Below, piece after piece: positions 28,250 to 42,628 of a DNA stretch of 64,000 nucleotides. The notes under the pieces were generated by a model, which was given only the letters and a program-made list of their open reading frames with translations, searched no databases and was not told where the DNA came from. Where the stretch lies: NCBI RefSeq assembly GCF_017744395.1, contig NZ_JAGIBI010000001.1:744001-808000 (forward strand). Reading direction: 5' to 3'. The number at the start of each line of letters is the position of its first letter. The first letter of the stretch is position 1. The stretch comes from Herbaspirillum sp. GTDB taxonomy: Bacteria > Pseudomonadota > Gammaproteobacteria > Burkholderiales > Burkholderiaceae_D. The position numbers and the translations under genes were made by a program.

Positions 28250-31200
28250 ATGATGAGCCGGCACGCGTCGATGAACCATATTTACCGCCTGGTCTGGAGC
28301 CAGTTGTCCAACGCCTGGGTAGCGGTCGCCGAGACCGCGCGCGGGCGTGGGAAAACCTCCCGGCGCAAACTCGTTCTGGTGGCGCTTTCCCTATCCGGCA
28401 CCGCCGTCCAGGCAGCGCCGCTTGGCGGACAGGTTAGCGCGGGGTCCGGCAGCATTTCCTCCGCCGGCACGACCACCACCATCACGCAATCCAGCCAGAA
28501 CCTGTCGCTGAACTGGAACAGTTTCAACATCGGGCGCCAGGAAACGGTGAACTTCGTGCAGCCATCGGCCAGCGCGATCGCCGTCAACCGGATTACCGAT
28601 ACGAACGGCACGCAGATACTCGGCCAGCTCAACGCCAACGGCCAGGTCTACCTGATCAATCCGAACGGCATCCTGTTCGGCTCCGGCGCGCAAGTCAACG
28701 TCGGCGGCCTGGTGGCCTCGACGCTGGGCATCAGCGATGCCGCCCTGAGCGGCGCCGCCCGCAGCTTCGCCGGGACCGGCACCGGCAGTATCGTCAACCA
28801 GGGGACGATCAATGCCGCCAACGGCGGTTACGTGGCCTTCCTGGGCAACGCCGTCAGCAACCAGGGCACCATCAACGCCCCGCTCGGCGCCGTCGCCCTT
28901 GGCGCCGGCAGCGCCGTGACGCTGACCTTCGACGGCAATAGCCTGGTCAAGATGCAAGTGGACCAGAGCACCTTGAACAACCTGGCCGAAAACCGCGACC
29001 TGATCAAGGCCGACGGCGGCATGGTGATCATGAATGCCGGTGCCAAGGATGCCTTGCTGGCCAGCGTGGTGAACAACACCGGCGTGATCCAGGCGCATAC
29101 GGTGGAAAACCGGAACGGCACCATCACCCTCCTCGGCGGCATGGCGGCCGGGCAAGTGAACGTTGGCGGCACGCTGGATGCAAGCGCGCCCAACGGCGGC
29201 AACGGCGGCTTCATCGAAACCTCGGCGGCGCGCGTCAAGATCGCCAGCGATGCCGGCGTCACCACACGCGCCCCCGGCGGCAAGAGCGGCACCTGGCTGA
29301 TCGACCCGGTGGACTACACGATTGCGGCCAGCGGCGGCGACCAGACCGGCGCGCAACTTTCCGCCGCGCTGAGCGGCGGCAATGTCACCATCCAAAGCGC
29401 CAATGGCACGAGCGGAACCGCTGGCAATGTCAATGTCAATGACACCGTTTCCTGGAGCGCCAACACTCTGACCCTGAACGCCCAAAACAACATCAACATC
29501 AATTCCGCCATGACGGCGACAGGCAGCGCGGGCCTTGCGCTGCAATATGGACAAGGGGCGGTCGCGGCCGGCAACACCAGCACGAATATGGTCAATGCGC
29601 CGGTCAATCTTGCCACCGGCACCAGCTTCAGCACCAAACTGGGCTCCGATGGCACCACGATCAACTACATCGTGATCAACAGCCTGGGCGCGCAAGGGGA
29701 TGCGACGGCAGCGCCTGCCACGGCCAGCCTGCAAGGCATGGCGGCAACCTCCAATCTAGCGAAGAATTACGTACTCGGCAGCAATATCGACGCTACCGCG
29801 ACATCCGGATGGAACAGCAATACCGGCTTTACGCCCATAGGAAACAGCACTACCAATTTCACCGGCAATTTCGATGGCCTGGGCCATACCATCAGCAATC
29901 TCACCAGCAATAGGCCAACTGTGGGCGGCATCGGGATGTTCGGCATCGTCAACGGAACCGCCGTAATACGTAACATAGGACTGGTCAATGTCAGCATGAC
30001 CGGGCACGACAGCGTTGGCGGCTTGATCGGGGCCAACTTTGGAAACACCGTCAGCAACAGCTACGCCACCGGCGCCGTCAGTGCCGGAAGCGCTACCCCC
30101 GGCACAATAGGCGGTCTGGTGGGATTCAACTCCGGCGCCATCAGAAATAGCTATGCGACAAGCTCCGTCAACGTCGCCTACAGCAACAACAGTTACATCG
30201 GCGGCCTGGTCGGCAACAATTCCGGTTCGATCAATAACAGCTACGCTACCGGCGCCATCAACGTGGTCGACAGCAGTTTCTACATCGGCGGGCTGATTGG
30301 ATATAACACCGGCACGATCAGCAACAGCCATGCCACCGGCACGATCAACCGCAGCACCGCTACCGACGGCATCAATTACACCGGCGGCCTGGTGGGTTAT
30401 TCGGGCAGCGGCACCATCAGCAATAGTTACGCCACGGTTGCGGTCATCGGCGGCAGCCGCTCCAGCGATCTCGGCGGCCTGGTGGGACTCATGTTCAACG
30501 GTGCGATCAGCAACAGTTATTCCACAGGCGCCGTCAACGGCCATAATTCTGTTGGCGGGCTGGTAGGAAACAGCCAGGGAGGTCCCATCAGCAACAGCTA
30601 CGCCACGGGTGCTGTCAGCAACGACAGCTCCGGCAGCTATGCAGGCGGGCTGGTGGGGTCCATCACATCGACAAACGCCGCAGCAAGCATTACCAACAGC
30701 TATGCCACGGGCGCCGTCAGCGGCAGCAGCAATGGCATTGGCGGGTTGGTCGGCTACACCAATTCCGCCACAGCGGCCAACAGTTACTGGAATACGGCCA
30801 CATCCGGCCAAAGCGCATCGGCCGGCGGACTTGGCACGGGGCTGACGACTGCGCAAATGCAGCAGCAGAGCAATTTCGGCAGTTGGGATTTCTCCAATAC
30901 CTGGATCAGCTACAGCGGCCAGACCGCGCCGCTGCTGCGCTCGTTCATGACGCCCCTCATGGTGACGGCAAACAATGTCACCAAAACCTACGACAGCTAT
31001 GCCTACTCCAGCGGCAGCGTAAGCTTCTCCAGTAGCAACAACCTGATCGGCTACGTGCTCGGTTCGGTCAGCTATAGCGGCACATCCCAAGGCGCGACCA
31101 ATGTCGGCAGCTATGTCATTACGCCCGGCGGGCTGTACTCGAACCAGCAAGGCTACATCATCAGCTACGCCAACGGCACATTGACGGTGAACCCCGCATC

Positions 31201-32815
31201 GCTTTCCGTCACCGGCGTCACCGCCAGCAACAAGACCTATGACGCCGGCACCGCCGCCGCCTTGTCCGGAACGGCTGCAGTGGCCGCCCTGGGCAGCGAT
31301 GTCATCACCGTCAGCGGAACCGGCGTAGGGACATTCGCCGACAAGAACGTCGGCAACGGCAAGGCCGTCACCGTCACCGGCTATACCCTGTCGGGCGCTG
31401 CTGCCGGCAACTACACCATCGTCCAGCCGACAGGCTTGACCGCCAACATCACCCCAGCCAGCCTCGCCGTCACGGGCGTCACAGCCAATAACAAGACCTA
31501 TGACACCAGCGCTGCCGCCACACTGGCCGGGACTGCCACCGTGACCGCCCTGGGCAGCGATGTCGTCAGCCTGGGCGGAACCGGTGTGGGAACATTCGCC
31601 AACAAGAACGTCGGCAATGGGAAGGCTGTCACCATCAGCGGCTATACCCTGTCAGGCACCGACGCTAGCAACTACACCCTTGTCCAACCGACAGGCTTGA
31701 CCGCCAACATTACGCCAGCCAGCCTCGCCGTCACGGGCGTCACCGCCAGCAACAAGACCTATGACGCCGGCACCGGTGCCACGCTGCTCGGAACCGCCGC
31801 CGTGACTGCCCTCGGCAACGACGTCGTCAGCCTGGGAGGAACCGGCATGGGAACATTCGCCGACAAGAATGTCGGCAACGGTAAAACGGTCACCGTCAGC
31901 GGCTATACCCTGTCCGGTACCGACGCCGGTAATTACACCATCGTCCAACCCACGGGTTTGACCGCCAACATCACCCCAGCCAGCCTCGCCATTACCGGCC
32001 TCACCGCCGGCAACAAGGTCTATGACGCCGGCACCGCCGCCGCACTGGCCGGAACCGCCGCCGTGACTGCCCTCGGCAGCGACGCCGTCAGCCTGGGTGG
32101 AACCGGTGTGGGAACATTCGCCAACAAGAACGTCGGCAACGGTAAAACGGTTACCGTCAGCGGCTACACCCTCTCCGGCGCCGACGCCGGCAATTACAAC
32201 CTGGCGGCCCCCGCCAACCTGACCGCCAACATTACGCCCGCAGCGCTCACCGTATCCGGCATCACCGCCAACAACAAGACCTATGACGGCACGACCTCCG
32301 CCACCGTCAACACGGCCGGCGCGACGCTAAGCCCCGTGATCGGCACGGATCAGGTCACGCTGCACTCCACCGGCGCCTTCGCCGATGCCGCCGTCGGCAC
32401 CGGCAAGACCGTCAACCTGAGCAACAGCCTGGGCGGAGCGGACGGCGGCAACTATACGCTGGGCGGCCAGGCCACCACGCTGGCCAACATCAGCCCGGCG
32501 CCAGTGGCGGTCGCTAATCCGGATAGCGCTGCCCTGCCGCAAACACCGCTGCCCCAGCAGGTCCGCAACACCATCGCCGATGCACAGTCGCCGCTGCTGG
32601 CCTCGCTGCAACCCGCCCCGCAATTGCCGTTGCAACTGCCGCCACCGGCGATCGCGCTACATCAGGATGACGGCGGAGGCGACAAGAGCAGCGAGCTCCC
32701 GGCCTCGCGGCCGGTCAACATCCAGCCCGGCATCCCCTCGCTGGCACCGACCCTGAAAATCCTGGATGCCGGTGTAAAACTGCCGCCCGCCTCCATCGCC
32801 GACAACCGGAACTGA
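28250..32815 (+). CDS. Two-partner secretion exoprotein (TpsA) with GLUG and MBG/YDG repeats
   Basis: 1521 residues. The start has the extended signal peptide region (MNHIYRLVWSQLSNAWVAVA, residues 8-27; the ATGs at 28253 and 28271 are alternatives), with cleavage near GTAVQA-AP. The TPS haemagglutinin-activity domain follows (about 55-300) with the NPNGILFGSGAQVNVGG motif. GLUG-type repeats (GG-L-VG-NSG-I-NSYATG) fill about 587-860. Five tandem MBG/YDG-type repeats of 87 residues occupy about 982-1415, and a Pro-rich tail closes the protein. It is presumably exported by the TpsB encoded next and acts as a surface adhesin. No cytotoxic CDI tip domain is seen. Confidence 0.93.
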   Translation: MMSRHASMNHIYRLVWSQLSNAWVAVAETARGRGKTSRRKLVLVALSLSGTAVQAAPLGGQVSAGSGSISSAGTTTTITQSSQNLSLNWNSFNIGRQETVNFVQPSASAIAVNRITDTNGTQILGQLNANGQVYLINPNGILFGSGAQVNVGGLVASTLGISDAALSGAARSFAGTGTGSIVNQGTINAANGGYVAFLGNAVSNQGTINAPLGAVALGAGSAVTLTFDGNSLVKMQVDQSTLNNLAENRDLIKADGGMVIMNAGAKDALLASVVNNTGVIQAHTVENRNGTITLLGGMAAGQVNVGGTLDASAPNGGNGGFIETSAARVKIASDAGVTTRAPGGKSGTWLIDPVDYTIAASGGDQTGAQLSAALSGGNVTIQSANGTSGTAGNVNVNDTVSWSANTLTLNAQNNININSAMTATGSAGLALQYGQGAVAAGNTSTNMVNAPVNLATGTSFSTKLGSDGTTINYIVINSLGAQGDATAAPATASLQGMAATSNLAKNYVLGSNIDATATSGWNSNTGFTPIGNSTTNFTGNFDGLGHTISNLTSNRPTVGGIGMFGIVNGTAVIRNIGLVNVSMTGHDSVGGLIGANFGNTVSNSYATGAVSAGSATPGTIGGLVGFNSGAIRNSYATSSVNVAYSNNSYIGGLVGNNSGSINNSYATGAINVVDSSFYIGGLIGYNTGTISNSHATGTINRSTATDGINYTGGLVGYSGSGTISNSYATVAVIGGSRSSDLGGLVGLMFNGAISNSYSTGAVNGHNSVGGLVGNSQGGPISNSYATGAVSNDSSGSYAGGLVGSITSTNAAASITNSYATGAVSGSSNGIGGLVGYTNSATAANSYWNTATSGQSASAGGLGTGLTTAQMQQQSNFGSWDFSNTWISYSGQTAPLLRSFMTPLMVTANNVTKTYDSYAYSSGSVSFSSSNNLIGYVLGSVSYSGTSQGATNVGSYVITPGGLYSNQQGYIISYANGTLTVNPASLSVTGVTASNKTYDAGTAAALSGTAAVAALGSDVITVSGTGVGTFADKNVGNGKAVTVTGYTLSGAAAGNYTIVQPTGLTANITPASLAVTGVTANNKTYDTSAAATLAGTATVTALGSDVVSLGGTGVGTFANKNVGNGKAVTISGYTLSGTDASNYTLVQPTGLTANITPASLAVTGVTASNKTYDAGTGATLLGTAAVTALGNDVVSLGGTGMGTFADKNVGNGKTVTVSGYTLSGTDAGNYTIVQPTGLTANITPASLAITGLTAGNKVYDAGTAAALAGTAAVTALGSDAVSLGGTGVGTFANKNVGNGKTVTVSGYTLSGADAGNYNLAAPANLTANITPAALTVSGITANNKTYDGTTSATVNTAGATLSPVIGTDQVTLHSTGAFADAAVGTGKTVNLSNSLGGADGGNYTLGGQATTLANISPAPVAVANPDSAALPQTPLPQQVRNTIADAQSPLLASLQPAPQLPLQLPPPAIALHQDDGGGDKSSELPASRPVNIQPGIPSLAPTLKILDAGVKLPPASIADNRN
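31193..32494 (+). repeat. Five tandem 261-bp in-frame repeats in the TPS exoprotein
   Basis: Units start at 31193, 31454, 31715, 31976 and 32237; the first four are exactly 261 bp (87 codons) and the last 258 bp. Each opens with a PASL-VTG-TA-NKTYD motif and ends with LTANIT. Units 2 to 4 are the most alike at DNA level. The length invariance points to recent duplication or homogenisation. Confidence 0.9.
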
Positions 32816-32847
32816 GCATCCCCCTCGACCAATAAAGAGAACAATCC

Positions 32848-34539
32848 ATGATGTCCGCATCTTCGCCAGCATTCCTGTTGAAACCGCTGGCCGCCGCCTT
32901 GCTGCTGGCGACGCTCGACGCCCATGCGGCCGGCCCCGGCACGCCCGATTCCGGTGCCATCCTGCAGCAGCTGCAACCGGGCGTCCCGGCCGCGGCGCCA
33001 TCCAACGCGCCGACGCTGCAAATCGCGCCGCGCAGTGAAGCCGGCTTGCCGGCATCGGCACCGTTTGAAGTAAAGCACCTGCGCATCACCGGCAATACTG
33101 CCTTCGCCACCGAAATACTGCATGCGCTGGTGGCCGACCAGGAAGGCCAGCGCCTGACGCTGGAGCAGCTCAATGCACTGGCCGGCCGCATTACCGCCTA
33201 CTACCAGAATCACGGCTTTCCGCTGGCGCGGGCCATCATTCCGGCGCAAACGATCAGCGATGGCGTAGTGGTGATCCAGGTGGTGGAAGCGCATTACGGC
33301 CAGGTCAGCCTGAATAACCGCAGCAAAGTCGGCGATCCCGTGCTCAACGCCATCCTGGCGCCGCTGCAAGGCGGCCAGGCGATCGCCGGAAACGAACTCG
33401 ACCGCACATTGCTGCTGCTGTCGGACGTGCCCGGCGTCGGCCTGAGCGCTTCCCTCAAGCCCGGCGCAGCGGTCGGCACCTCGGACCTGGATATCGAAGC
33501 CAACGACAATCCCGCGGCGCCGGTCAGCCTGGCGCTGGACAATTACGGCAACCGCTATGTTGGCCGCACGCGCCTGAGCGGCAACATCAGCCTGCTCAAC
33601 CCGCTGCATCACGGCGACATCCTCAGCGCCAGCCTGCTCACTACCGGCAACGGCATGAACTACGGCCGCGTGAGCTACGACACCCTGGTCAGCGGCAGCG
33701 GCACCCGGGTCGGCGCGGCCTATTCCTACCTGCGCTACAAACTCGGCAGCGAGCTCAACGCGCTGGGCGCCAACGGCACTGCCGGCGTCGCCAGCCTGTG
33801 GGCAAGGCAACCGCTGCTGCGCGGCAAACAGGCCAACCTCTATGCGCAGGTGCAATACGACGCCAAGCGCTTGCGCGACCATATCGACAGCGGCGGGGTC
33901 AATACCGATCGCCATCTGGCCAACTGGGTGCTGAGCCTGAACGGCGATCTGCGCGACAGCTTGCTGGCCGGCGGCTTCAGCGCATGGAGCCTGGGCTGGA
34001 CCAATGGCCGGGTCGTCTTCGACGATGCCGCGGCGGCCAGCGCCGACGATGCCACTGCCCGCACCCGTGGCGGTTTTTCCAAATGGAATGCCAATGTCTC
34101 GCGCCTGCAAGGATTGGGGCAGCGCGATACGCTGTATGTCAGCCTGGCGGCGCAATGGGCCGATTCGAACCTGGATTCGGCGGAAAAGATGACGGCCGGC
34201 GGCCCGTTCAGCGTGCGCGCCTATGACATCGGCGCCGCCTCGGGCGATACCGGCTACCTTGGCACGGTGGAATGGCGCCATGACCTCGGCAGCCCGCTGG
34301 CCGGCCAATGGCAGGCGCTGGCCTTCATCGACAGCGCCTACGTGAAAGCGAACCGCCGTCCATGGAGCACCGCCGAAAACAGCGCCACCCTGTCCGGCGC
34401 CGGCGTCGGCCTGAACTGGATCGGGCCGGACCTGTGGCGCGCCAGCGCCGCGTTGGCCACACGCATCGGCGGCTTATCGTCGCTGGTGGCGCGGCAATCG
34501 TCGGTGCGCGCCTGGATGACGCTCAGCAAGGGCTTCTGA
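32848..34539 (+). CDS. TpsB outer-membrane transporter (ShlB/FhaC/HecB family)
   Basis: 563 residues. The signal peptide ends LDAHAAG. A linker is followed by POTRA domains (about 70-240, with FEVKHLRITGNTAF and QTISDGVVVIQVVEAHYG). The barrel (about 250-563) ends SLKGF-like, here LSKGF with C-terminal Phe. The L6 loop reads FSVRAYDIGAASGDTGYLG, the VRAY form often seen in this family in place of VRGY. It should secrete the upstream exoprotein; the genes are 32 bases apart. Insertion depends on BamA. Confidence 0.93.
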   Translation: MMSASSPAFLLKPLAAALLLATLDAHAAGPGTPDSGAILQQLQPGVPAAAPSNAPTLQIAPRSEAGLPASAPFEVKHLRITGNTAFATEILHALVADQEGQRLTLEQLNALAGRITAYYQNHGFPLARAIIPAQTISDGVVVIQVVEAHYGQVSLNNRSKVGDPVLNAILAPLQGGQAIAGNELDRTLLLLSDVPGVGLSASLKPGAAVGTSDLDIEANDNPAAPVSLALDNYGNRYVGRTRLSGNISLLNPLHHGDILSASLLTTGNGMNYGRVSYDTLVSGSGTRVGAAYSYLRYKLGSELNALGANGTAGVASLWARQPLLRGKQANLYAQVQYDAKRLRDHIDSGGVNTDRHLANWVLSLNGDLRDSLLAGGFSAWSLGWTNGRVVFDDAAAASADDATARTRGGFSKWNANVSRLQGLGQRDTLYVSLAAQWADSNLDSAEKMTAGGPFSVRAYDIGAASGDTGYLGTVEWRHDLGSPLAGQWQALAFIDSAYVKANRRPWSTAENSATLSGAGVGLNWIGPDLWRASAALATRIGGLSSLVARQSSVRAWMTLSKGF

Positions 34540-34595: not shown

Positions 34596-35093
34596 TCAGA
34601 GGAAACGATCCAGTATCTTGCGGCTGTGCTTGTCCAGCGCACGGCTGTCGCGCACCAGGAACTGGATGCTGTGGCTGTCGGCAATCAGCAAGGCCGACTG
34701 CGGCAGGCGGCGGATGTCTTCCTCGCCCTTCAGGGTGAAGGTGGTGACGCCGCGGCTGGTTTCCACCGTCCAGTCGCTGGGGGTGGCATAGGTCGAGACG
34801 CTGACGATGCGCAGGATCTCCGGCATGAATTCGCGGCAGGCCAATTCCTCTTCGATCAGGGCGCGCACTTCCGCGCCGACCTGCTCCAGCCGCTCGATCC
34901 AGGCCAGTTCATGGCCGTCGCTGCTGACGATGGAAATGCCGTGGTCCGGTGCGCCGATCGGGAATGCCCGCACCGGCACCACATTCTCGCTCTCGACGCC
35001 TTCGGCGTCGATGAAGACCAGGCGGCCGAAACTGTTGCGGCGCAAGGCGATGGATGCCAGCGATGCCGCGGCGCTTGTTGCGGTTGTAGTCAT
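34596..35093 (-). CDS. DUF1854 family protein linked to cyanophycin metabolism
   Basis: 165 residues from the ATG at 35093 (a GTG at 35099 overlaps the ABC gene stop, but the GGGAGG ribosome site is spaced better for the ATG). No signal peptide or membrane segment. Conserved parts are SFGRLVFIDAEGVESENVVP and VRAFPIGAPDHGISIVSSDG, then HELAWIERL and REFMPEILRIVSVSTYATPS. The family is known from cyanophycin loci of betaproteobacteria, but its biochemical role is not. It is directly downstream of, and apparently coupled to, the ABC transporter gene. Confidence 0.88.
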   Translation of the reverse strand: MTTTATSAAASLASIALRRNSFGRLVFIDAEGVESENVVPVRAFPIGAPDHGISIVSSDGHELAWIERLEQVGAEVRALIEEELACREFMPEILRIVSVSTYATPSDWTVETSRGVTTFTLKGEEDIRRLPQSALLIADSHSIQFLVRDSRALDKHSRKILDRFL

Positions 35094-35095
35094 GC

Positions 35096-37375
35096 TCACT
35101 CTCCTCCCTCGGCCTGGCTGACCGATACTTCCGCCTCGCCCTCGGGATTGCGCGCCTGCGCCTGGTACAGCTTGTAGTAATGGCCTTCGCGCGCCATCAG
35201 TTCATCATGATTGCCGACTTCCACCACCTGGCCGCGGTCCAGCACCACCAGGCGATCGGCCTTGCGCAGCGTCGACAGGCGGTGGGCGATGGCGATCGTG
35301 GTGCGGCCCTGCACCAGGTTGTCCAGCGCCTTCTGGATTTCCTTCTCGGTCGTAGTGTCGACCGACGAAGTCGCCTCGTCCATGATCAGGATGCGCGGGT
35401 CGATCAGCAGCGCGCGCGCAATCGAAATGCGCTGGCGCTCGCCGCCCGACAAGGCCTGGCCGCGCTCGCCCACCAGCGAGTCGTAGCCCTGCGGCAGGCG
35501 CAGGATGAATTCATGCGCATGCGCCGCGCGGGCGGCGGCCACGATCTCTTCGCGCGTGGCGTCCGGCTTGCCGTAGGCGATGTTCTCGGCGATGGTGCCG
35601 AAGAACAGGAACGGCTCCTGCAGCACCAGGCCTATGTTGCGACGGTATTCGGAAATCGGCAGCGAGCGGATGTCGACGCCGTCGATGCGGATCGCGCCTT
35701 CGGAAACGTCGTAGAAACGGCAGATCAGGTTGACCATGGTGGACTTGCCCGAACCGCTGTGGCCGACCAGGCCGATCATCTCGCCCGGCGCGATGTTCAG
35801 ACTCATGTTGCGGATCACCGCGCGGTTGCCGTAGCGGAAGCCGATGTTGCGCACCTCGATGGCGCCCTCCACCTTTTTCAGGTGCACCGGGTTGGCCGGT
35901 TCTGGCACGCTGGAGACGTGGTCGAGAATGTCGAAGATGCGCTTGGCGCCGGCGGCGGCCTTCTGCGTCACCGACACGATGCGGCTCATCGAATCCAAGC
36001 GGGTGTAGAAGCGGCTGATGTAAGCCAGGAAGGCGGTCAGCACGCCCACCGTGATCTGGTTGTTCGACACCTGCCAGATGCCGAACACCCACACCACCAG
36101 CAGGCCGACTTCGGTCAGGAAGGTCACGGTCGGGGTGAACAGCGACCAGATCTTGTTGACGCGGTCGTTGACCATCAGGTTGTGGCGGTTGGCTTCACGG
36201 AAGCGCGCCACTTCGCGCTTTTCCTGGGCGAAGGCCTTGACCACGCGGATGCCGGGGATGGTATCGGCCAGCACGTTGGTCACTTCCGACCAGATGCGGT
36301 CGATCTTTTCGAAGCCGTGGCGCAGGCGGTCGCGCACCACATGGATCATCCAGGCGATGAACGGCAGCGGCAGCAAGGTCACCAGCGCCAGCCACGGGTT
36401 GATCGAGATCAGGATGCCGGCCGTCATGAGGATCATCAGCACATCGATGGCGAAGTCCAGCAGGTGCAGCGACAGGAACACGCAGATGCGGTCGGTCTCG
36501 GAGCCGATGCGCGCCATCAGGTCGCCGGTGCGCTTGCCGCCGAAGTACTCCTGCGACAGCCGCAGCAGGTGTTCGTAAGTGGTGGTGCGCAGGTCGGCGC
36601 CGATGCGCTCGGACACCAGCGCCAGGATGTAGGTGCGCGCCCAGCCCAGGCCCCAGGCCAGCAAGGCCGCGCCCAGCAGGCCGGACAGGTACAGCATGGC
36701 CAGGTGGGTATTGATCGGCGCACCGTTCTGGAACGGGATCAGCACGTTGTCCATCAGCGGCATGGTCATGTAGGGCGGCACCAGCGTGGCGGCGGTGGAG
36801 GCCAGCGTCAGCAGGAAGCCCAGCAGCAGCGAGCCCTTGTAGGGCTTGGCGAAGCGCGACAGGCGGAACAGCGCCCAGGTCGACGGCGGCGCCTCCTTGA
36901 CCTCGGGACAGATGGCACAGATTTCCTGTCCTTCAGGAATCGGCGCCTTGCACTGCGGACAGATGTCGCCGCCCTCTTCTTCCGGCGCCACGCCGGAAGC
37001 CGCCATGTCGCGCTGCTGTTCGAACAGCTTGATCAGGCGCAGCGCCTGCGGGTTTTGCGCCAGCGTGTAGCGCCACGCCGCCAGCCGGCCTTGGGCATCG
37101 CACAGTTCCAGGGTGCCGACGCCGGCATGGTCGAAATGCTTCAGCGACAGTCCCGGGTGGTAGGTCCACTCTTGCCAGGCGCTCTCCCCCGGCGTATTGG
37201 CCAGCAAACGGGTTTCGGTGGCCACCACCAGCGAGGACTTGAATTGCAATTGCGTATCGAGATCCAACTCCAGCCAGGCCACGATCTTTTCGTTGGCGGC
37301 GAGGCGGGCTGCGATTTCCGTTTTCCAGCGCTCGGGCAGGCTGGCGATGGCGGAAGGAAGGGAAACAGTAGTCAT
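35096..37375 (-). CDS. ABC exporter (fused membrane and ATPase domains) linked to cyanophycin synthetases
   Basis: 759 residues. The first 120 form a soluble beta-rich domain absent from ordinary exporters. A zinc-ribbon follows, with Cys pairs at 139/142 and 153/156. A six-helix exporter membrane domain (about 175-480) is followed by an ATPase domain: Walker A GLVGHSGSGKST near 535, signature LSGGERQRISIARAL near 642, Walker B ILIMDEATSSVD. The overall layout is MsbA/LipA-exporter-like. It is divergent from cphA' across 410 bases and coupled to the DUF1854 gene. Substrate unknown; cyanophycin link is by conserved context. Confidence 0.88.
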   Translation of the reverse strand: MTTVSLPSAIASLPERWKTEIAARLAANEKIVAWLELDLDTQLQFKSSLVVATETRLLANTPGESAWQEWTYHPGLSLKHFDHAGVGTLELCDAQGRLAAWRYTLAQNPQALRLIKLFEQQRDMAASGVAPEEEGGDICPQCKAPIPEGQEICAICPEVKEAPPSTWALFRLSRFAKPYKGSLLLGFLLTLASTAATLVPPYMTMPLMDNVLIPFQNGAPINTHLAMLYLSGLLGAALLAWGLGWARTYILALVSERIGADLRTTTYEHLLRLSQEYFGGKRTGDLMARIGSETDRICVFLSLHLLDFAIDVLMILMTAGILISINPWLALVTLLPLPFIAWMIHVVRDRLRHGFEKIDRIWSEVTNVLADTIPGIRVVKAFAQEKREVARFREANRHNLMVNDRVNKIWSLFTPTVTFLTEVGLLVVWVFGIWQVSNNQITVGVLTAFLAYISRFYTRLDSMSRIVSVTQKAAAGAKRIFDILDHVSSVPEPANPVHLKKVEGAIEVRNIGFRYGNRAVIRNMSLNIAPGEMIGLVGHSGSGKSTMVNLICRFYDVSEGAIRIDGVDIRSLPISEYRRNIGLVLQEPFLFFGTIAENIAYGKPDATREEIVAAARAAHAHEFILRLPQGYDSLVGERGQALSGGERQRISIARALLIDPRILIMDEATSSVDTTTEKEIQKALDNLVQGRTTIAIAHRLSTLRKADRLVVLDRGQVVEVGNHDELMAREGHYYKLYQAQARNPEGEAEVSVSQAEGGE

Positions 37376-37785
37376 TTAACGGCAAAAGTTGGAGGTATGC
37401 AGCCGGAAGGCGCCATCCGGCATAAGCAGCGCGCGATTATAGCGCTCCACAGGCTGTCATAACGCAAGACCCCCAAAAACGGTGGACGCGGGCCGGGATC
37501 GCTGGAAGCCATTTCCCGCCAGATGCGACAACGGCCGCGACACGGCGAAATTCCCGCCATGAGCGGGAGACAGTCTGAGACAATATCGCCCAACTGCACC
37601 CGCGCTGTCCGTCTTTTTGCCTCAACCAGTAAACCAATCGTACTCCGGCGCGTTAGTGAGGCATGGTTTATTCTGACGAAATACTGACCAGAATGACAAA
37701 CAGACAATAAAACCAGACAACAAAACATAGCTCGACGGCAACAAAAGCAGCATCAGACAGCACATTACGCGGCCCATCCACCGAC
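37376..37785. promoter_or_regulatory. ABC transporter / cphA' divergent intergenic region
   Basis: 410 bases without a credible gene. It holds a minus-strand TATAAT (37436-37441) with no good -35, and a GCCGGA-N8-TCCGGC dyad (37402-37421) near the transporter start. TTCCCGCCA occurs twice (37513, 37551), the second forming TCCCGC-CATGA-GCGGGA. An ATTCTG-N13-CAGAAT dyad lies at about 37662-37696. No sigma-54 site seen. The cphA' ATG lacks an obvious ribosome site. Confidence 0.45.
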
Positions 37786-39984
37786 ATGAAAAATATCGAA
37801 TTCCTCCGTTTCCTGCCCCTGCAAGGTCCCAACATCTGGACCTACCGTTCGGCCCTCGAAGTATGGATCGACATCGGCGAACTGGAAGACTTTCCCTCCA
37901 ATACCCTGCCCGGCTTCAATCAGCGCCTGACCTCCTGGCTGCCCAGCCTGATCGAGCACCGCTGCAGCTATGAAGTGCGCGGCGGCTTCGTCAAGCGCCT
38001 GGAAGAAGGCACCTGGCCCGGCCACATCCTGGAGCATGTCACGCTGGAACTGCAAAACCTGGCCGGCCTGCCGGGCGGCTTCGGCAAGGCGCGCGAGACC
38101 AATGTGCGCGGCGTCTACAAGGTAGTCGTGCGCGCCCGCCATGAAACGGTTACCCGCGCCGCGCTGTACGCCGCGCGCGACCTGGTCATGGCCGCCATCG
38201 AAGACAAGCCCTACGACCTCGACGCCACGCTGGAAAAGCTGCGCCGCATGGTCGACAAGCTGTGCCTGGGCCCCAGCACCGCCTGTATCGTCGACGCCGC
38301 CGACGAGCGCCGCATCCCCACCATCCGCCTGTCCGAGGGCAACCTGGTGCAGCTCGGCCACGGCTGCAAGCAGCGCCGCATCTGGACCGCCGAGTCCGAC
38401 CAGACCGGTGCCATCGCCGAAAGCATCTCGCGCGACAAGGACCTGACCAAGACCCTGCTGGAAAACTGCGGCGTGCCGGTCCCCGAAGGCCGCCTGGTCG
38501 ACAGCCCGGAAGACGCCTGGGACGCCGCCGAAGACATCGGCCTGCCGGTGGTGGTCAAGCCTTGCGACGCCAACCACGGCCGCGGCGTCTTCATCGACCT
38601 GAACACCCGCGAGGAAATCGAGACCGCCTACAAGGCCGCCCTGGAAGAAGGCAGCGGCGTGCTGGTCGAGCGCTATGTGCCCGGCCTCGAACACCGCCTG
38701 CTGATCGTCGGCGGCAAGCTGGCCGCGGCCGCCCGCGGCGAGCCGATCTTCATCGTCGGCGACGGCAAGTCGACCGTGCAGCAACTGCTGGACGAACTCA
38801 ACCGCGACCCGCGCCGCGGCCTGCTGGAAGAGCACCTGCTCGACCCGGTGCTGCTGGAACGCGAACCGGCCGCCGTGCTGGAGCTGCAGCGCCAGAACCT
38901 GACCACCGAATCGGTGCCGGCCGCCGGCCGCCGCATCCTGCTGCTGCGCAACGGCAACGTCTCGGCCGACGTCACCGACCAGGTGCACCCCAGCGTGGCC
39001 GCCGCCGCCTCGCTGGCCGCGCGCATCGTGGGCCTGGACATCGCCGGCGTCGACATCGTCGCCGAAGACATCTCGCGCCCGCTGGCCGACCAGGGCGGCG
39101 CCATCGTCGAGGTCAATGCCGGCCCCGGCTTGCTGATGCACCTGAAACCGTCCGAAGGCCAGCCGCGCCCGGTCGGCGAAGCCATCGTCAACAACCTGTT
39201 CGGCGAAGGCGAGAACGGCCGCATCCCCGTGGTCGGCGTCACCGGCACCCACGGCAAGACCACCATCTCGCGCCTGATCGCGCGCATCATCCACCTTTCC
39301 GGCAAGCACGTCGGCCTGGCCTGCGGCGACGGCCTGTATTTCGGCGAACGCCTGGTCGAGCGCGGCAACCGCGCCAACTGGGGCGCCGCCCACCGCGTGC
39401 TGCTCAACCGCGCGGTGGAAGCCGCGGTGTTCGAGAACGGCAGCGTCTCCATCCTCTCCGAAGGCCTGGCCTACGACCGTTGCCTGGTCGGCGTGGTGGC
39501 CAACATCGATCCCAACGACAGCCTGCCCGAGTACTACATCGAAAACGCCGAGCAAATGGCGACCAAGGTCAAGCGCACCCAGGTCGACGTGGTGCTGCCG
39601 GACGGCGCCGCCGTGCTCAACGCCGACGACCCGCTGGTGGCCGACATGGCGCAGCTGTGCGACGGCGAAGTGATCTTCTTCGGCATCCAGCCGGAGTCGC
39701 CGCTGCTGGCAGAACACCTGAAGAACGGCGGCCGCGCGGTATTCCTGCGCGACGGCGACCTGATCCAGGCCGAAGGCGAGCGCCAATCCAAGGTCAGTTC
39801 GGTGGATGCCATCCCGCTGACCGAAAACGGCGCCGTCGCCTACCAGGTCGAAAACGTCCTGGCCGCGGTGGGCGCAGCCTGGGCGCTGGGCATCGGCCCC
39901 GAAGTGATCCGCGCCGGCATCGAGCTGTTCGGCACCGAGCAGGCGGAACAGCAAGGGCTCAAGTTCAAGGCGCAAACCGCCTGA
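37786..39984 (+). CDS. cphA': Cyanophycin synthetase, short form (CphA')
   Basis: 732 residues against about 870 for typical CphA. It has the N-terminal domain (LQGPNIWTYRSALEVWIDIG), a complete-looking ATP-grasp domain (about 215-480, with GNLVQLGHGCKQRRI, then SISRDKDLTKTLL and IVEVNAGPGLLMHL), and the start of the Mur-ligase domain with P-loop GVTGTHGKTTISRL near 486. It stops after LFGTEQAEQQGLKFKAQ, so the Mur C-terminal lid domain is missing. It may not do both ATP-driven steps (Asp backbone, Arg side chain) alone. Paired with full-length cphA 73 bases downstream, as in Cupriavidus. Confidence 0.9.
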   Translation: MKNIEFLRFLPLQGPNIWTYRSALEVWIDIGELEDFPSNTLPGFNQRLTSWLPSLIEHRCSYEVRGGFVKRLEEGTWPGHILEHVTLELQNLAGLPGGFGKARETNVRGVYKVVVRARHETVTRAALYAARDLVMAAIEDKPYDLDATLEKLRRMVDKLCLGPSTACIVDAADERRIPTIRLSEGNLVQLGHGCKQRRIWTAESDQTGAIAESISRDKDLTKTLLENCGVPVPEGRLVDSPEDAWDAAEDIGLPVVVKPCDANHGRGVFIDLNTREEIETAYKAALEEGSGVLVERYVPGLEHRLLIVGGKLAAAARGEPIFIVGDGKSTVQQLLDELNRDPRRGLLEEHLLDPVLLEREPAAVLELQRQNLTTESVPAAGRRILLLRNGNVSADVTDQVHPSVAAAASLAARIVGLDIAGVDIVAEDISRPLADQGGAIVEVNAGPGLLMHLKPSEGQPRPVGEAIVNNLFGEGENGRIPVVGVTGTHGKTTISRLIARIIHLSGKHVGLACGDGLYFGERLVERGNRANWGAAHRVLLNRAVEAAVFENGSVSILSEGLAYDRCLVGVVANIDPNDSLPEYYIENAEQMATKVKRTQVDVVLPDGAAVLNADDPLVADMAQLCDGEVIFFGIQPESPLLAEHLKNGGRAVFLRDGDLIQAEGERQSKVSSVDAIPLTENGAVAYQVENVLAAVGAAWALGIGPEVIRAGIELFGTEQAEQQGLKFKAQTA

Positions 39985-40057
39985 GCGTAACCCGTAACGC
40001 CGGCGCAACCGACAAGACATCAGCACAACACTCAAGAGACACTCAGGAACATTGTCC

Positions 40058-42628
40058 ATGGACGTATCACGCATACGCGCACTGCGCGGCCCCAACCTCT
40101 GGAGCAGACACACCGCCATCGAAGCCATCGTTTCCTGTCCCGCCGAGGAACAGGTGGTGGACGACATGCCCGGCTTCGAAGTGCGCCTGCGCGCGCGCTT
40201 CCCGCAGATCGGCTTCCTCGAACCCGACGGCGGCAAGCAGGTCGTGTCGATGGCCCATGCGCTGGCCGCCGCCGCGCTGGCGCTGCAGTCGCAGGCCGGC
40301 TGCCCGGTCACGTTCAGCCGCACCGTCTCCACCATCGAATCCGGCGTCTATCAGGTCGTGGTGGAATACAGCGAAGAGGAAGTCGGCCGCCTGGCCTTCG
40401 ACCTGGCGCTGGAACTGTGCCGCGCGGCACAGGAGGACACCCCGTTCGACCTGACCGGCGCGCTGGCGCGCATCCGCGAGCTGGACGAAGACGTGCGCCT
40501 GGGCCCCAGCACCGGCTCCATCGTCAACGCCGCCATCAAGCGCGGCATCCCGTTCCGCCGCCTGACCCAGGGCAGCATGGTGCAGTTCGGCTGGGGCAGC
40601 CGCCAGAAGCGCATCCAGGCCGCCGAGACCAGCAATACCAGCGCCATCGCCGAATCGATCGCGCAAGACAAGGACCTGACCAAGATGCTGCTGCACGCGG
40701 CCGGCGTGCCGGTGCCCAACGGCCGCGTGGTCACTACCGCCGAAGATGCCTGGAAGGCCACCGAAGAGATCGGCGCCGCGGTCGTCATCAAGCCGCTGGA
40801 CGGCAACCAGGGCAAGGGCGTGGCGGTCAACGTCCGCAGCCGCGCCGAGGTCGAGCGCGCCTTCGCCAACGCCGCCCGCATCAGCGACGAGGTCATCGTC
40901 GAGCGCTACCTGCACGGCCACGACTTCCGCCTGCTGGTGATCGGCAACAAGCTGGTGGCCGCCGCCCGCCGCGATCCGCCGCAAGTCATCGGCGACGGCG
41001 TGCACACCATCCGCCAGCTGATCGACCAGGTCAACGCCGACCCGCTGCGCGGCGACGGCCACGCCACCTCGCTGACCAAGATCCGCCTGGACGACATCGC
41101 CATCTCGGTGCTGGCCGGCCAGAACCTCGATCCTGAAGCGATTCCGGCCCAGGGCGTGCGCGTGGTCCTGCGCAACAACGCCAACCTGTCCACCGGCGGC
41201 ACCGCCACCGACGTCACCGACGACGTCCACCCCGACATGGCCGCGCGCGCCATCGCCGCGGCGCAGATGGTCGGGCTGGACATCTGCGGCGTCGACGTGG
41301 TGTGCAACTCGGTGCATGCCTCGATGGAAGAACAAGGCGGCGGCATCGTCGAAGTCAACGCCGCGCCCGGCCTGCGCATGCACCTCTCGCCCTCGTACGG
41401 CAAGAGCCGCGACGTCGGCCAGGCGATCGTCTCGACCATGTACGAAGACGGCGACGACGGCCGCATCCCGGTGGTGGCGGTGGCCGGCACCAACGGCAAG
41501 ACCACCACTGTGCGCCTGATCACCCATATGCTGGCCGAAACCGGCCTGCGCGTGGGCATGACCAATACCGACGGCGTCTACATCGACAAGCAACGCATCG
41601 ACACCGGCGACTGCAGCGGCCCGCGCAGCGCCCGCAACGTGCTGTTCCACCCGGACGTCGATGCCGCCGTGCTGGAAACCGCCCGCGGCGGCGTGCTGCG
41701 CGAAGGCCTCGGCTTCGACCGCTGCCATGTCGCCGTGGTCACCAACATCGGCATGGGCGACCACCTCGGCCTGTCCTACATCAGCACCGTGGAAGACCTG
41801 GCCGTGGTCAAGCGCGTGATCGTCGAGAACGTCGCCCCCACCGGCACCGCCGTGCTCAACGCGGCCGACCCGATGGTGGCCAAGATGGCCTCCTCCTGCC
41901 CCGGCTCCGTCACCTTCTTCGCGCTCGATCCCACCCATCCGATCATGGCCACGCACCGCGCCCAGGGCCACCGCATCGTCTACCGCGACGGCGACGCCAT
42001 CGTGGCCGCGCAAGGCAGCTTCGAGAAGCGCCTGAAGCTGTCCGCCATCCCGCTCACGCGCAACGGCGGCATCGGCTTCCAGGTCGAGAACACCATGGCC
42101 TCGGTCGGCGCCGCCTGGGCGCTGGGCCTGGACTGGGAACACATCACCGCCGCCCTGAACAGCTTCATCAGCGACAGCGATACCGCCCCCGGCCGCTTCA
42201 ACCTGTTCGACTACCGCGGCGCCACCCTGATCGCCGACTACGGCCACAACCCGGATGCCATCCAGGCATTGATCAAGGCCGTCGACAGCATGCCATCCAA
42301 GCGCCGCTCGGTGGTCATCAGCGGCGCCGGCGACCGCCGCGACGACGATATCACCCAGCAGACCGAAATGCTGGGCGACGCCTTCGACGAAGTGGTGCTG
42401 TACCAGGACCAGTGCCAGCGCGGCCGCAGCGATGGCGAAGTGATCGCGCTGCTGCGCAAGGGCCTGGAAAAAGCCACCCGCACTTCCGACGTCAAGGAGA
42501 TCTATGGCGAGTTCCTGGCCATCGATACCGCCCTGGCCTCGCTCAAGGAAGGCGACCTGTGCCTGATCCTGATCGACCAGATCGATGAGGCGCTGGCGCA
42601 CATCGGCAAGCGCGTGGCCGAAGGCTGA
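40058..42628 (+). CDS. cphA: Cyanophycin synthetase, full length (CphA)
   Basis: 856 residues from the ATG at 40058, with CAGGA 9 bases upstream. It builds multi-L-arginyl-poly-L-aspartate, a nitrogen store. The N-terminal domain (RALRGPNLWSRHTAIEAIV) is followed by ATP-grasp (GSMVQFGWGSRQKRIQ, IVEVNAAPGLRMHLSPS) and a complete Mur-ligase module with VVAVAGTNGKTTTVRLITHM near 475-490. The lid region contains LIADYGHNPDAIQALIKAV and VISGAGDRRDDDI. Unlike CphA', all three domains look complete. No cyanophycinase gene is in the window. Confidence 0.95.
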   Translation: MDVSRIRALRGPNLWSRHTAIEAIVSCPAEEQVVDDMPGFEVRLRARFPQIGFLEPDGGKQVVSMAHALAAAALALQSQAGCPVTFSRTVSTIESGVYQVVVEYSEEEVGRLAFDLALELCRAAQEDTPFDLTGALARIRELDEDVRLGPSTGSIVNAAIKRGIPFRRLTQGSMVQFGWGSRQKRIQAAETSNTSAIAESIAQDKDLTKMLLHAAGVPVPNGRVVTTAEDAWKATEEIGAAVVIKPLDGNQGKGVAVNVRSRAEVERAFANAARISDEVIVERYLHGHDFRLLVIGNKLVAAARRDPPQVIGDGVHTIRQLIDQVNADPLRGDGHATSLTKIRLDDIAISVLAGQNLDPEAIPAQGVRVVLRNNANLSTGGTATDVTDDVHPDMAARAIAAAQMVGLDICGVDVVCNSVHASMEEQGGGIVEVNAAPGLRMHLSPSYGKSRDVGQAIVSTMYEDGDDGRIPVVAVAGTNGKTTTVRLITHMLAETGLRVGMTNTDGVYIDKQRIDTGDCSGPRSARNVLFHPDVDAAVLETARGGVLREGLGFDRCHVAVVTNIGMGDHLGLSYISTVEDLAVVKRVIVENVAPTGTAVLNAADPMVAKMASSCPGSVTFFALDPTHPIMATHRAQGHRIVYRDGDAIVAAQGSFEKRLKLSAIPLTRNGGIGFQVENTMASVGAAWALGLDWEHITAALNSFISDSDTAPGRFNLFDYRGATLIADYGHNPDAIQALIKAVDSMPSKRRSVVISGAGDRRDDDITQQTEMLGDAFDEVVLYQDQCQRGRSDGEVIALLRKGLEKATRTSDVKEIYGEFLAIDTALASLKEGDLCLILIDQIDEALAHIGKRVAEG

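Follow-up and report, generated by a model that had tools for sequence, protein, structure and literature searches.

How do beta-proteobacteria recover cyanophycin without a cyanophycinase? A four-gene locus of Herbaspirillum sp. raises this question and holds two candidates for the answer: a cyanophycin synthetase paralog with an intact cutting motif (CphA'), and a pair of proteins, an ATP-binding cassette (ABC) exporter and a DUF1854 protein, standing in the place of the cyanophycinase. The locus lies in a stretch of 64,000 bp (C4:744001-808000; genome size 4.32 Mb), here called the window, and had been described in an initial annotation as two synthetases coupled to a dedicated exporter. 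Scarcity of the enzyme in this group has been documented by Sharon and Schmeing in 2023 (PMC10206079), whose survey gives cyanophycinase in 2.8% of 903 beta-proteobacterial genomes with CphA1, compared to 95.6% of 114 gamma- and 95.8% of 24 alpha-proteobacterial ones, and calls the beta-proteobacterial rate of 3% unanticipated. A paper of 2016 (PMC5178258), citing one of 2002, likewise refers to repeated searches that yielded no cyanophycinase in Betaproteobacteria. As an answer we propose, with a probability of roughly 45%, that CphA polymerises cyanophycin, that CphA' cuts it, and that a recruited PH-ABC/DUF1854 exporter moves a putative cargo, cyanophycin-derived peptides, out of the cell.

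The genes for the exporter (35096..37375; 759 amino acids) and the DUF1854 protein (34596..35099; 167 amino acids from a GTG start) are on the minus strand and diverge from cphA' (37786..39984; 732 amino acids) and cphA (40052..42628; 858 amino acids) on the plus strand, exactly as initially annotated. All four proteins exceed the cut-offs of NCBIfam models. CphA' and CphA both match the synthetase model NF010623 (1085 and 1253 bits, respectively). The term 'two synthetases' is nonetheless misleading, as the active sites of the paralogs have diverged.

Residue roles were taken from PMC9262961 (Cx19HxxEH in the N domain, H267 in the G domain, D585/H586 in the M domain) and from PMC9427784 (Asp-binding R323, N394 and R458; S396; ATP residues), while the role of the ARGG arginine (R561) was our own choice from the alignment. 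A first comparison included 45 CphA sequences of more than 900 bits, 47 CphA' sequences of more than 600 bits and the window pair. The full set consisted of 117 CphA' rows (114 distinct sequences) and 113 CphA rows (111 distinct), open reading frames of less than 600 amino acids or less than 240 bits being excluded, which drops split CphA frames such as those of L042 and L090. Such a CphA in two overlapping frames was seen at L042:9267-11850 (genome G306; L090 is on the same contig), possibly owing to a frameshift or an assembly error, and L079 is similar.

The Cx19HxxEH motif defined in PMC9262961 (C60-H84 of the window protein; 37963..38037, plus strand) is present in 117/117 CphA' rows, the window included, and in 0/113 CphA rows. 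In the G domain of CphA', R323 is lost in all 117 rows (always Gly or Ser), R458 is lost in all 117 (Leu in 113), and the Asp-binding loop is invariably five residues shorter, while H267 is kept in 116 rows and the ATP and metal residues K220, K261, R309, D431 and E450 are kept in every row. Given such uniform replacements next to preserved ATP and metal residues, the G domain of CphA' looks to be under constraint and not decaying. A loss of N394 and S396 was also considered; it appeared in a single pairwise alignment and is alignment-dependent, and the claim was kept to R323, R458 and loop length. The M domain has drifted, with K499 kept in 51/117 rows, H586 in 36/117 and the ARGG arginine in none. 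At most 25 residues of the C-terminal ligase part are left in 88/117 rows (one of these cut by the end of its locus), and a Mur_C remnant of at least 60 residues persists in 29/117 (Cupriavidus, Achromobacter, Ralstonia, Pandoraea and others), in which the ARGG arginine is replaced by Ser (28 rows) or Asn (one row). To judge from these rows, loss of the M domain in CphA' is gradual. The window CphA' has no Mur_ligase_C match, reads D S at D585 H586, and has the ARGG arginine replaced.

The window CphA lacks the N-domain motif and has retained R323, N394, S396 and R458 in the G domain, K499, D585 and H586 in the M domain, as well as Mur_ligase_C; across the CphA rows, R458 is kept in 113/113, R323 in 111/113 and H586 in 112/113. 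At position 267, Gln is found in the window and in 110/113 rows. This substitution was rejected as proof of a dead G domain and is not taken as loss of function, as a Gln at this position is shared by an otherwise complete single CphA (genome G117) and by both CphA proteins of a cphB-linked cluster. Conservation of the N-domain motif in all rows also ruled out that CphA' is a plain pseudogene. So CphA would be the synthetase, and CphA' a paralog that retains the cutting site, whose acceptor pocket has been altered and whose Arg-adding domain is being lost.

Compared with cyanobacterial CphA1 (SuCphA1, 7LG5; TeCphA1, 7WAC), the window CphA has the same M-domain residues and nearly the same G-domain residues (H267 and E215 differ), and CphA' shares the N-domain motif. 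In CphA1 the three active sites are located in one chain, whereas in the window the N site and the Asp/Arg sites are distributed over two, so that making the polymer and cutting it are encoded by different genes. In CphA1, according to the authors of PMC9262961, the balance of synthesis and cutting cannot be regulated by expression. By description, CphA' also resembles CphA2, in that the M domain is dead or missing and the G domain maybe does not use free Asp. PDB entries 7TA5 and 8FXH are probably CphA2 structures. As defined in PMC9262961, CphA2 lacks the N-domain active-site motif that CphA' has kept throughout. According to the same paper, the N domain of SuCphA1 cuts cyanophycin segments preferentially to tetramers, which serve as primers. 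Among the paper titles listed in a literature search that mostly did not extend to subscription journals, none concerned a division of labour between CphA and CphA'.

In a tree of 37 rows, 13 CphA' and 13 CphA sequences each formed one clade (100/100 in both cases), and the members of a pair from a Planctomycetota locus (L220) were sister to one clade each (100/100 and 100/97). This placement points to a single duplication that predates the spread. The first L220 protein follows the CphA' pattern apart from its M domain, which is intact, and the second follows the CphA pattern, as if the changes in the N domain and the Asp pocket had preceded loss of the M domain. A different split was observed in a metagenome-assembled genome (MAG) of Lamprocystis (L178:4281-8928), where one partner has its M domain intact but most of its G domain deleted, and the other, with N and G sites, has kept the Asp pocket next to a degenerate M domain; this split is more complete than that in the window.

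The exporter scores 1462.8 bits against NF052233, the 'cyanophycin metabolism-associated ABC transporter' (cut-off 880), and the runner-up model is the MsbA lipid A exporter (468 bits, below its cut-off of 602). It is a half-transporter with a single membrane domain (ABC_membrane, PF00664, 148.6 bits; residues 183-456, 36008..36829, minus strand) and a single ATPase domain (ABC_tran, PF00005; residues 522-670, 35366..35812, minus strand). Walker A is located at residue 538, the signature at 642, Walker B with its Glu at 662, and the H-loop at 696, just past the domain match. The same two domains make up exporters of the MsbA/Sav1866 type; the window exporter differs in having an additional PH-like domain and a zinc ribbon in front and DUF1854 behind. 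The soluble N-terminal domain noticed initially (approximately residues 1-132; 36980..37375, minus strand) is predicted to consist of seven strands closed by a C-terminal helix and matches PH structures, in line with a PH-like fold. The zinc ribbon, C139-x2-C142 ... C153-x2-C156 (36908..36961, minus strand), was likewise borne out, each of the four cysteines being kept in 110-111 of 122 cyanophycin-linked and 17-18 of 19 other homologues. Charged residues in the membrane domain (E256, R282, D285, D311, R348 and R459) are present in 122/122 cyanophycin-linked exporters, with the qualification that a comparison of 122 related with 19 divergent sequences itself favours such columns. NF052233 scores are 1125-1467 bits for the cyanophycin-linked exporters versus 577-584 bits for fused proteins described below. 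By score and by these charged positions, the cyanophycin-linked exporters appear as a subfamily that stands apart.

The DUF1854 protein matches PF08909 (174.7 bits; cut-off 26.8) and NF052234, the 'cyanophycin metabolism-associated DUF1854 family protein' (233.2 bits; cut-off 150). Its AlphaFold model (pLDDT 90) falls into two halves that are rich in strands, with a helix closing off each of them, and a structure search gave no confident match in the PDB. The junction with the exporter gene reads GAGTGAGCATG. The initial statement that the DUF1854 start overlaps or abuts the exporter stop is correct, since the gene, read from its GTG start, overlaps the end of the exporter gene (TGA) by four bases and a second possible start, ATG (35093-35091), lies two bases past the stop. 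The protein was considered as a hydrolase replacing cyanophycinase and rejected as the leading explanation, as no Cys or His occupies an invariant or nearly invariant column in alignments of 20 and 49 sequences and as it also occurs in many genomes devoid of cphA. A search of plasmids for DUF1854 of this type gave no match, and the term DUF1854 was found in no paper of the literature searched. We know of no cargo for the PH-ABC/DUF1854 transporter family.

To survey co-occurrence, 120 Burkholderiales genomes were sampled. As all 120 match the cphA model weakly via Mur ligases, cphA was scored as present at 500 bits or more; this applied to 43 genomes above the cut-off of 850 bits and, below it, to G306 and G322. 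In the remaining 75 genomes no match exceeded 318 bits. DUF1854 was found in 41 genomes, the exporter exceeded its cut-off in the same 41, and all 41 had a cphA-type gene. Four genomes had cphA without the pair, 75 had none of the three, and none had the pair alone, so that within this order the association is strict (Fisher p ~7e-28, which is not a real probability because the sampled genomes are related). Among 299 genomes of a Pseudomonadota search, DUF1854 occurred in 18, of which 17 were Burkholderiales. The identical divergent four-gene layout was present at 16/16 further Burkholderiales loci of that search, and a genome of another family (G117) has the exporter, DUF1854 and a single CphA that runs into the contig end. 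The order sample includes another 31 genomes with DUF1854; of these, the divergent quartet is compact in 25 (one with a two-frame CphA), the genes run in one direction in two, contig ends cut the locus in two, and spacing is wide in two. The best 80 of at least 579 confirmed relatives, at least three of which repeat genomes of other samples, comprised 67 loci with the full quartet, ten cut by contig ends, and three special loci from two Planctomycetota MAGs and the Lamprocystis MAG. In 54 of the 67 the quartet is divergent (two with a two-frame CphA), and in 13 all genes have the same direction. The quartet is also found in Cupriavidus necator UYPR2.512 (L153). No further conserved flanking gene was detected within the fetched stretches, the largest neighbour cluster covering 13/136 loci.

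Cyanophycinase (TIGR02069) was searched for in the order sample and in 11 further genomes reached via other loci, the 80 loci just mentioned being outside this search. The initial annotation had seen no cyanophycinase nearby; a profile search at E<=0.001 detected none in the whole genome. None was present at the 41 exporter loci, and 35 of the 41 genomes had no match at this threshold. Five cphA loci lack the pair, four of them in the cphA-only genomes and the fifth a second cluster in G240, and cyanophycinases of more than 230 bits are confined to these five genomes. In four of the five, the cyanophycinase adjoins cphA or lies one gene off; in G366 it is on another contig. In G240 it sits in the second, separate cphA cluster (L074:5693-12847), which contains two convergent cphA genes in a genome that also has the exporter quartet. 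G376, G352, G313 and again G240 have matches of 136-164 bits, above the cut-off, which lie either 187 kb or more away from the exporter locus or on a different contig. Matches below the cut-off were obtained on other contigs of G386 and G303; one genome without cphA (G396) has a match above the cut-off. In four of the 11 further genomes the match scores 136-161 bits, and in one it scores 98 bits; none of these matches is at an exporter or cphA locus. The scarcity of the enzyme at exporter loci agrees with the survey in PMC10206079. As the four cphA-only genomes carry a cyanophycinase and the 41 exporter loci none, the exporter-DUF1854 pair appears to take the place of the cyanophycinase. The annotation had also noted that no isoaspartyl dipeptidase gene is nearby; in a search that covered the IaaA type and not IadA, one PF01112 (IaaA-type) protein was found to be encoded approximately 349 kb beyond the window.

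The pair also occurs outside cyanophycin loci. Frequent occurrence without cphA, which the initial annotation had named as an argument against a cyanophycin link, was found in Planctomycetota: DUF1854 was present in 27/246 genomes (26 above the Pfam cut-off, G590 below), and 24 of the 27 had no CphA match at E<=1e-40, although this absence may partly reflect incompleteness as some of the genomes are MAGs. One locus was inspected from each of 20 of the 27 genomes. An ABC exporter adjoins DUF1854 in 17/20 loci, all in genomes without a CphA match, and a PH profile matches 14 of these 17 exporters. The other three are L220 with its two cphA genes, L214 with a stand-alone DUF1854, and L211 with a long frame without ABC match. 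The L211 frame (L211:3106-6015; 969 amino acids) ends in DUF1854 and gave no further Pfam match at E<=1e-5; it could represent a new fusion, or else the frame is too long. In two Planctomycetota MAGs (G404 and G405), the PH-like domain, zinc ribbon, ABC exporter and DUF1854 are fused in proteins of 966 amino acids encoded away from cyanophycin genes (L177:6860-9760 and L176:108-3008; Pfam was run on one). Fusion and adjacency argue for a physical complex of exporter and DUF1854. No common neighbours were found in Planctomycetota (19 neighbours at 12 loci, six without Pfam match). The designation 'dedicated' thus holds for the NF052233 subfamily and not for the pair at large, which is not specific to cyanophycin. 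DUF1854 was also seen alone, behind a gene for a DsbA-like thioredoxin, in the Lamprocystis genome mentioned above (L098:7258-8489), on a contig other than that of the exporter.

In the mechanism that we favour, CphA would make the polymer in dependence on primers. CphA' would cut it internally to short pieces, so that these prime new chains or the chains are dismantled, and its altered G domain would join something other than free Asp. DUF1854 would bind to the exporter and act as its adaptor. Both proteins together, recruited from the wider family for cyanophycin-derived peptides, would carry these across the inner membrane as oligomers or, less likely, as the whole chain. With such export, a cyanophycinase would not be needed at the locus. 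This proposal builds on what is legible in the sequences, i.e. linkage in the sampled order, loci free of cyanophycinase, active sites split over two chains, and the existence of a wider family. A more far-reaching version, in which the bacteria secrete cyanophycin as oligomers or chain, with a two-chain machine to synthesise and trim the Arg-Asp polypeptide and the exporter to release it, and have no cyanophycinase for this reason, we consider unlikely.

Several observations weigh against peptide export by this route. Lipids, drugs or peptides are the typical cargoes of ABC exporters with this fold, and a long branched chain would be an unusual one. The ancestral cargo was probably not cyanophycin, because the family occurs without cphA and its neighbours have no common theme. 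Co-occurrence counts are not independent of descent, and six of the 41 exporter genomes do have some cyanophycinase-type match elsewhere. A basic residue might in part stand in for the lost R323 of CphA', because Arg or Lys precedes it in 90/117 rows. Loci of two Planctomycetota MAGs (L080:3478-5400 and L076:1671-3716), where synthetase-like proteins with N and M domains and without the G (ATP-grasp) domain adjoin the exporter and DUF1854, do not fit a simple account of polymer export; one of these MAGs has a second, full-length CphA elsewhere in its genome. Finally, CphA1 is slow in its N-domain protease activity (PMC9262961).

The most important alternative, although we rate it as somewhat unlikely, is that cyanophycin made by CphA is stored inside the cell and that CphA' itself is the missing cyanophycinase. 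IaaA-like enzymes would finish the degradation, and the exporter would transport something else required or generated by the system, e.g. a lipid, a by-product or a component of the granule surface. The endo-cyanophycinase motif of all 117 CphA' rows speaks for this possibility, as it is located on a gene of its own and cutting could therefore be regulated apart from synthesis. The IaaA-type protein encoded in this genome, the general lack of cyanophycinase in beta-proteobacteria, and MsbA as next-best exporter model (468 bits, below 602) are also consistent with storage. Storage leaves unexplained, however, why the pair is found in exactly those genomes that have this locus and is absent at the five other cphA loci, and the slow N-domain activity reported in PMC9262961 yields tetramers, not dipeptides.

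It is quite improbable that the ABC protein and DUF1854 serve as a membrane anchor or sensor, with PH-like domains holding the synthetase or the granule, ATP gating synthesis, and little or nothing being transported. The ATPase motifs are present, and the wider family occurs without cphA, as would a real transporter. We give even less credence to the idea that the paralogs make a different polymer, CphA' adding a non-Asp residue or a cap and the exporter carrying the modified product, e.g. a chain that is capped or linked to a lipid. Loss of R323, R458 and five loop residues in 117/117 rows, with H267 kept in 116/117 and the ATP and metal residues in 117/117, suggests active chemistry on a changed acceptor and would be compatible with such a product. 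Yet cyanobacterial CphA2 builds polymer from dipeptides that were salvaged from cyanophycin (PMC9262961), so that a G domain not using free Asp need not give a new product. Hitchhiking of four functionally independent genes as a mobile block is extremely improbable. In its favour, PMC10687191 suggests that insertion sequences at its flanks turn such a cluster into a composite transposon. Against it, the same genes are kept in two different arrangements, the arms have stayed linked in two genomes although exporter and cphA' are 8 and 13 kb apart there, and selection at the level of sites is strict.

Parts of this picture are already known. The association is an existing annotation, as the initial note had said, by the names of NF052233 and NF052234, whose cut-offs the window proteins far exceed; these entries give the name only and exclude the fused, cphA-independent relative (576 bits, below 880). 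In genomes from activated sludge, the cphA cluster called 'Group 1' (PMC10687191) likewise has two cphA genes, an unclassified ABC transporter and no cphB; the section on this group stresses insertion sequences and does not treat DUF1854, active sites or a wider exporter family.

Closest to the window among the matches listed, as far as named loci are concerned, are those of Herbaspirillum species, L151 (91-92% for CphA, CphA' and exporter; 79% for DUF1854) and L149 (92% for the exporter, 94% for a partial CphA'). The two arms are separated by a divergent spacer of 410 bp (37376..37785), the presumed promoter region of both. A search for a common regulator site in divergent spacers gave just a short GTAAACCAA match in four Herbaspirillum-type spacers; together with a CGTTA element that follows it (37629-37655 for both), it is kept in the window and three Herbaspirillum relatives. 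On the other side of the locus (28250-34539) are genes for a filamentous-haemagglutinin-like protein (1521 amino acids) and an FhaC/ShlB-like outer-membrane transporter (563 amino acids), which look like a two-partner secretion pair, are on the strand opposite to DUF1854 and end 56 bases from its stop.

For the biology of this group, the locus suggests that the polymer or its fragments are possibly handled, and perhaps exported, in an undescribed way. For a cyanophycin synthetase of Variovorax paradoxus, a transcriptome table in PMC7494200, which directly precedes the one on downregulation in biofilm, lists a value of 27.39, presumably its induction in biofilm. If secretion were true, the textbook intracellular nitrogen granule would become an exported polymer or a nitrogen currency in this large group of bacteria, with possible roles in the capsule, in the biofilm matrix or as a shared nutrient.

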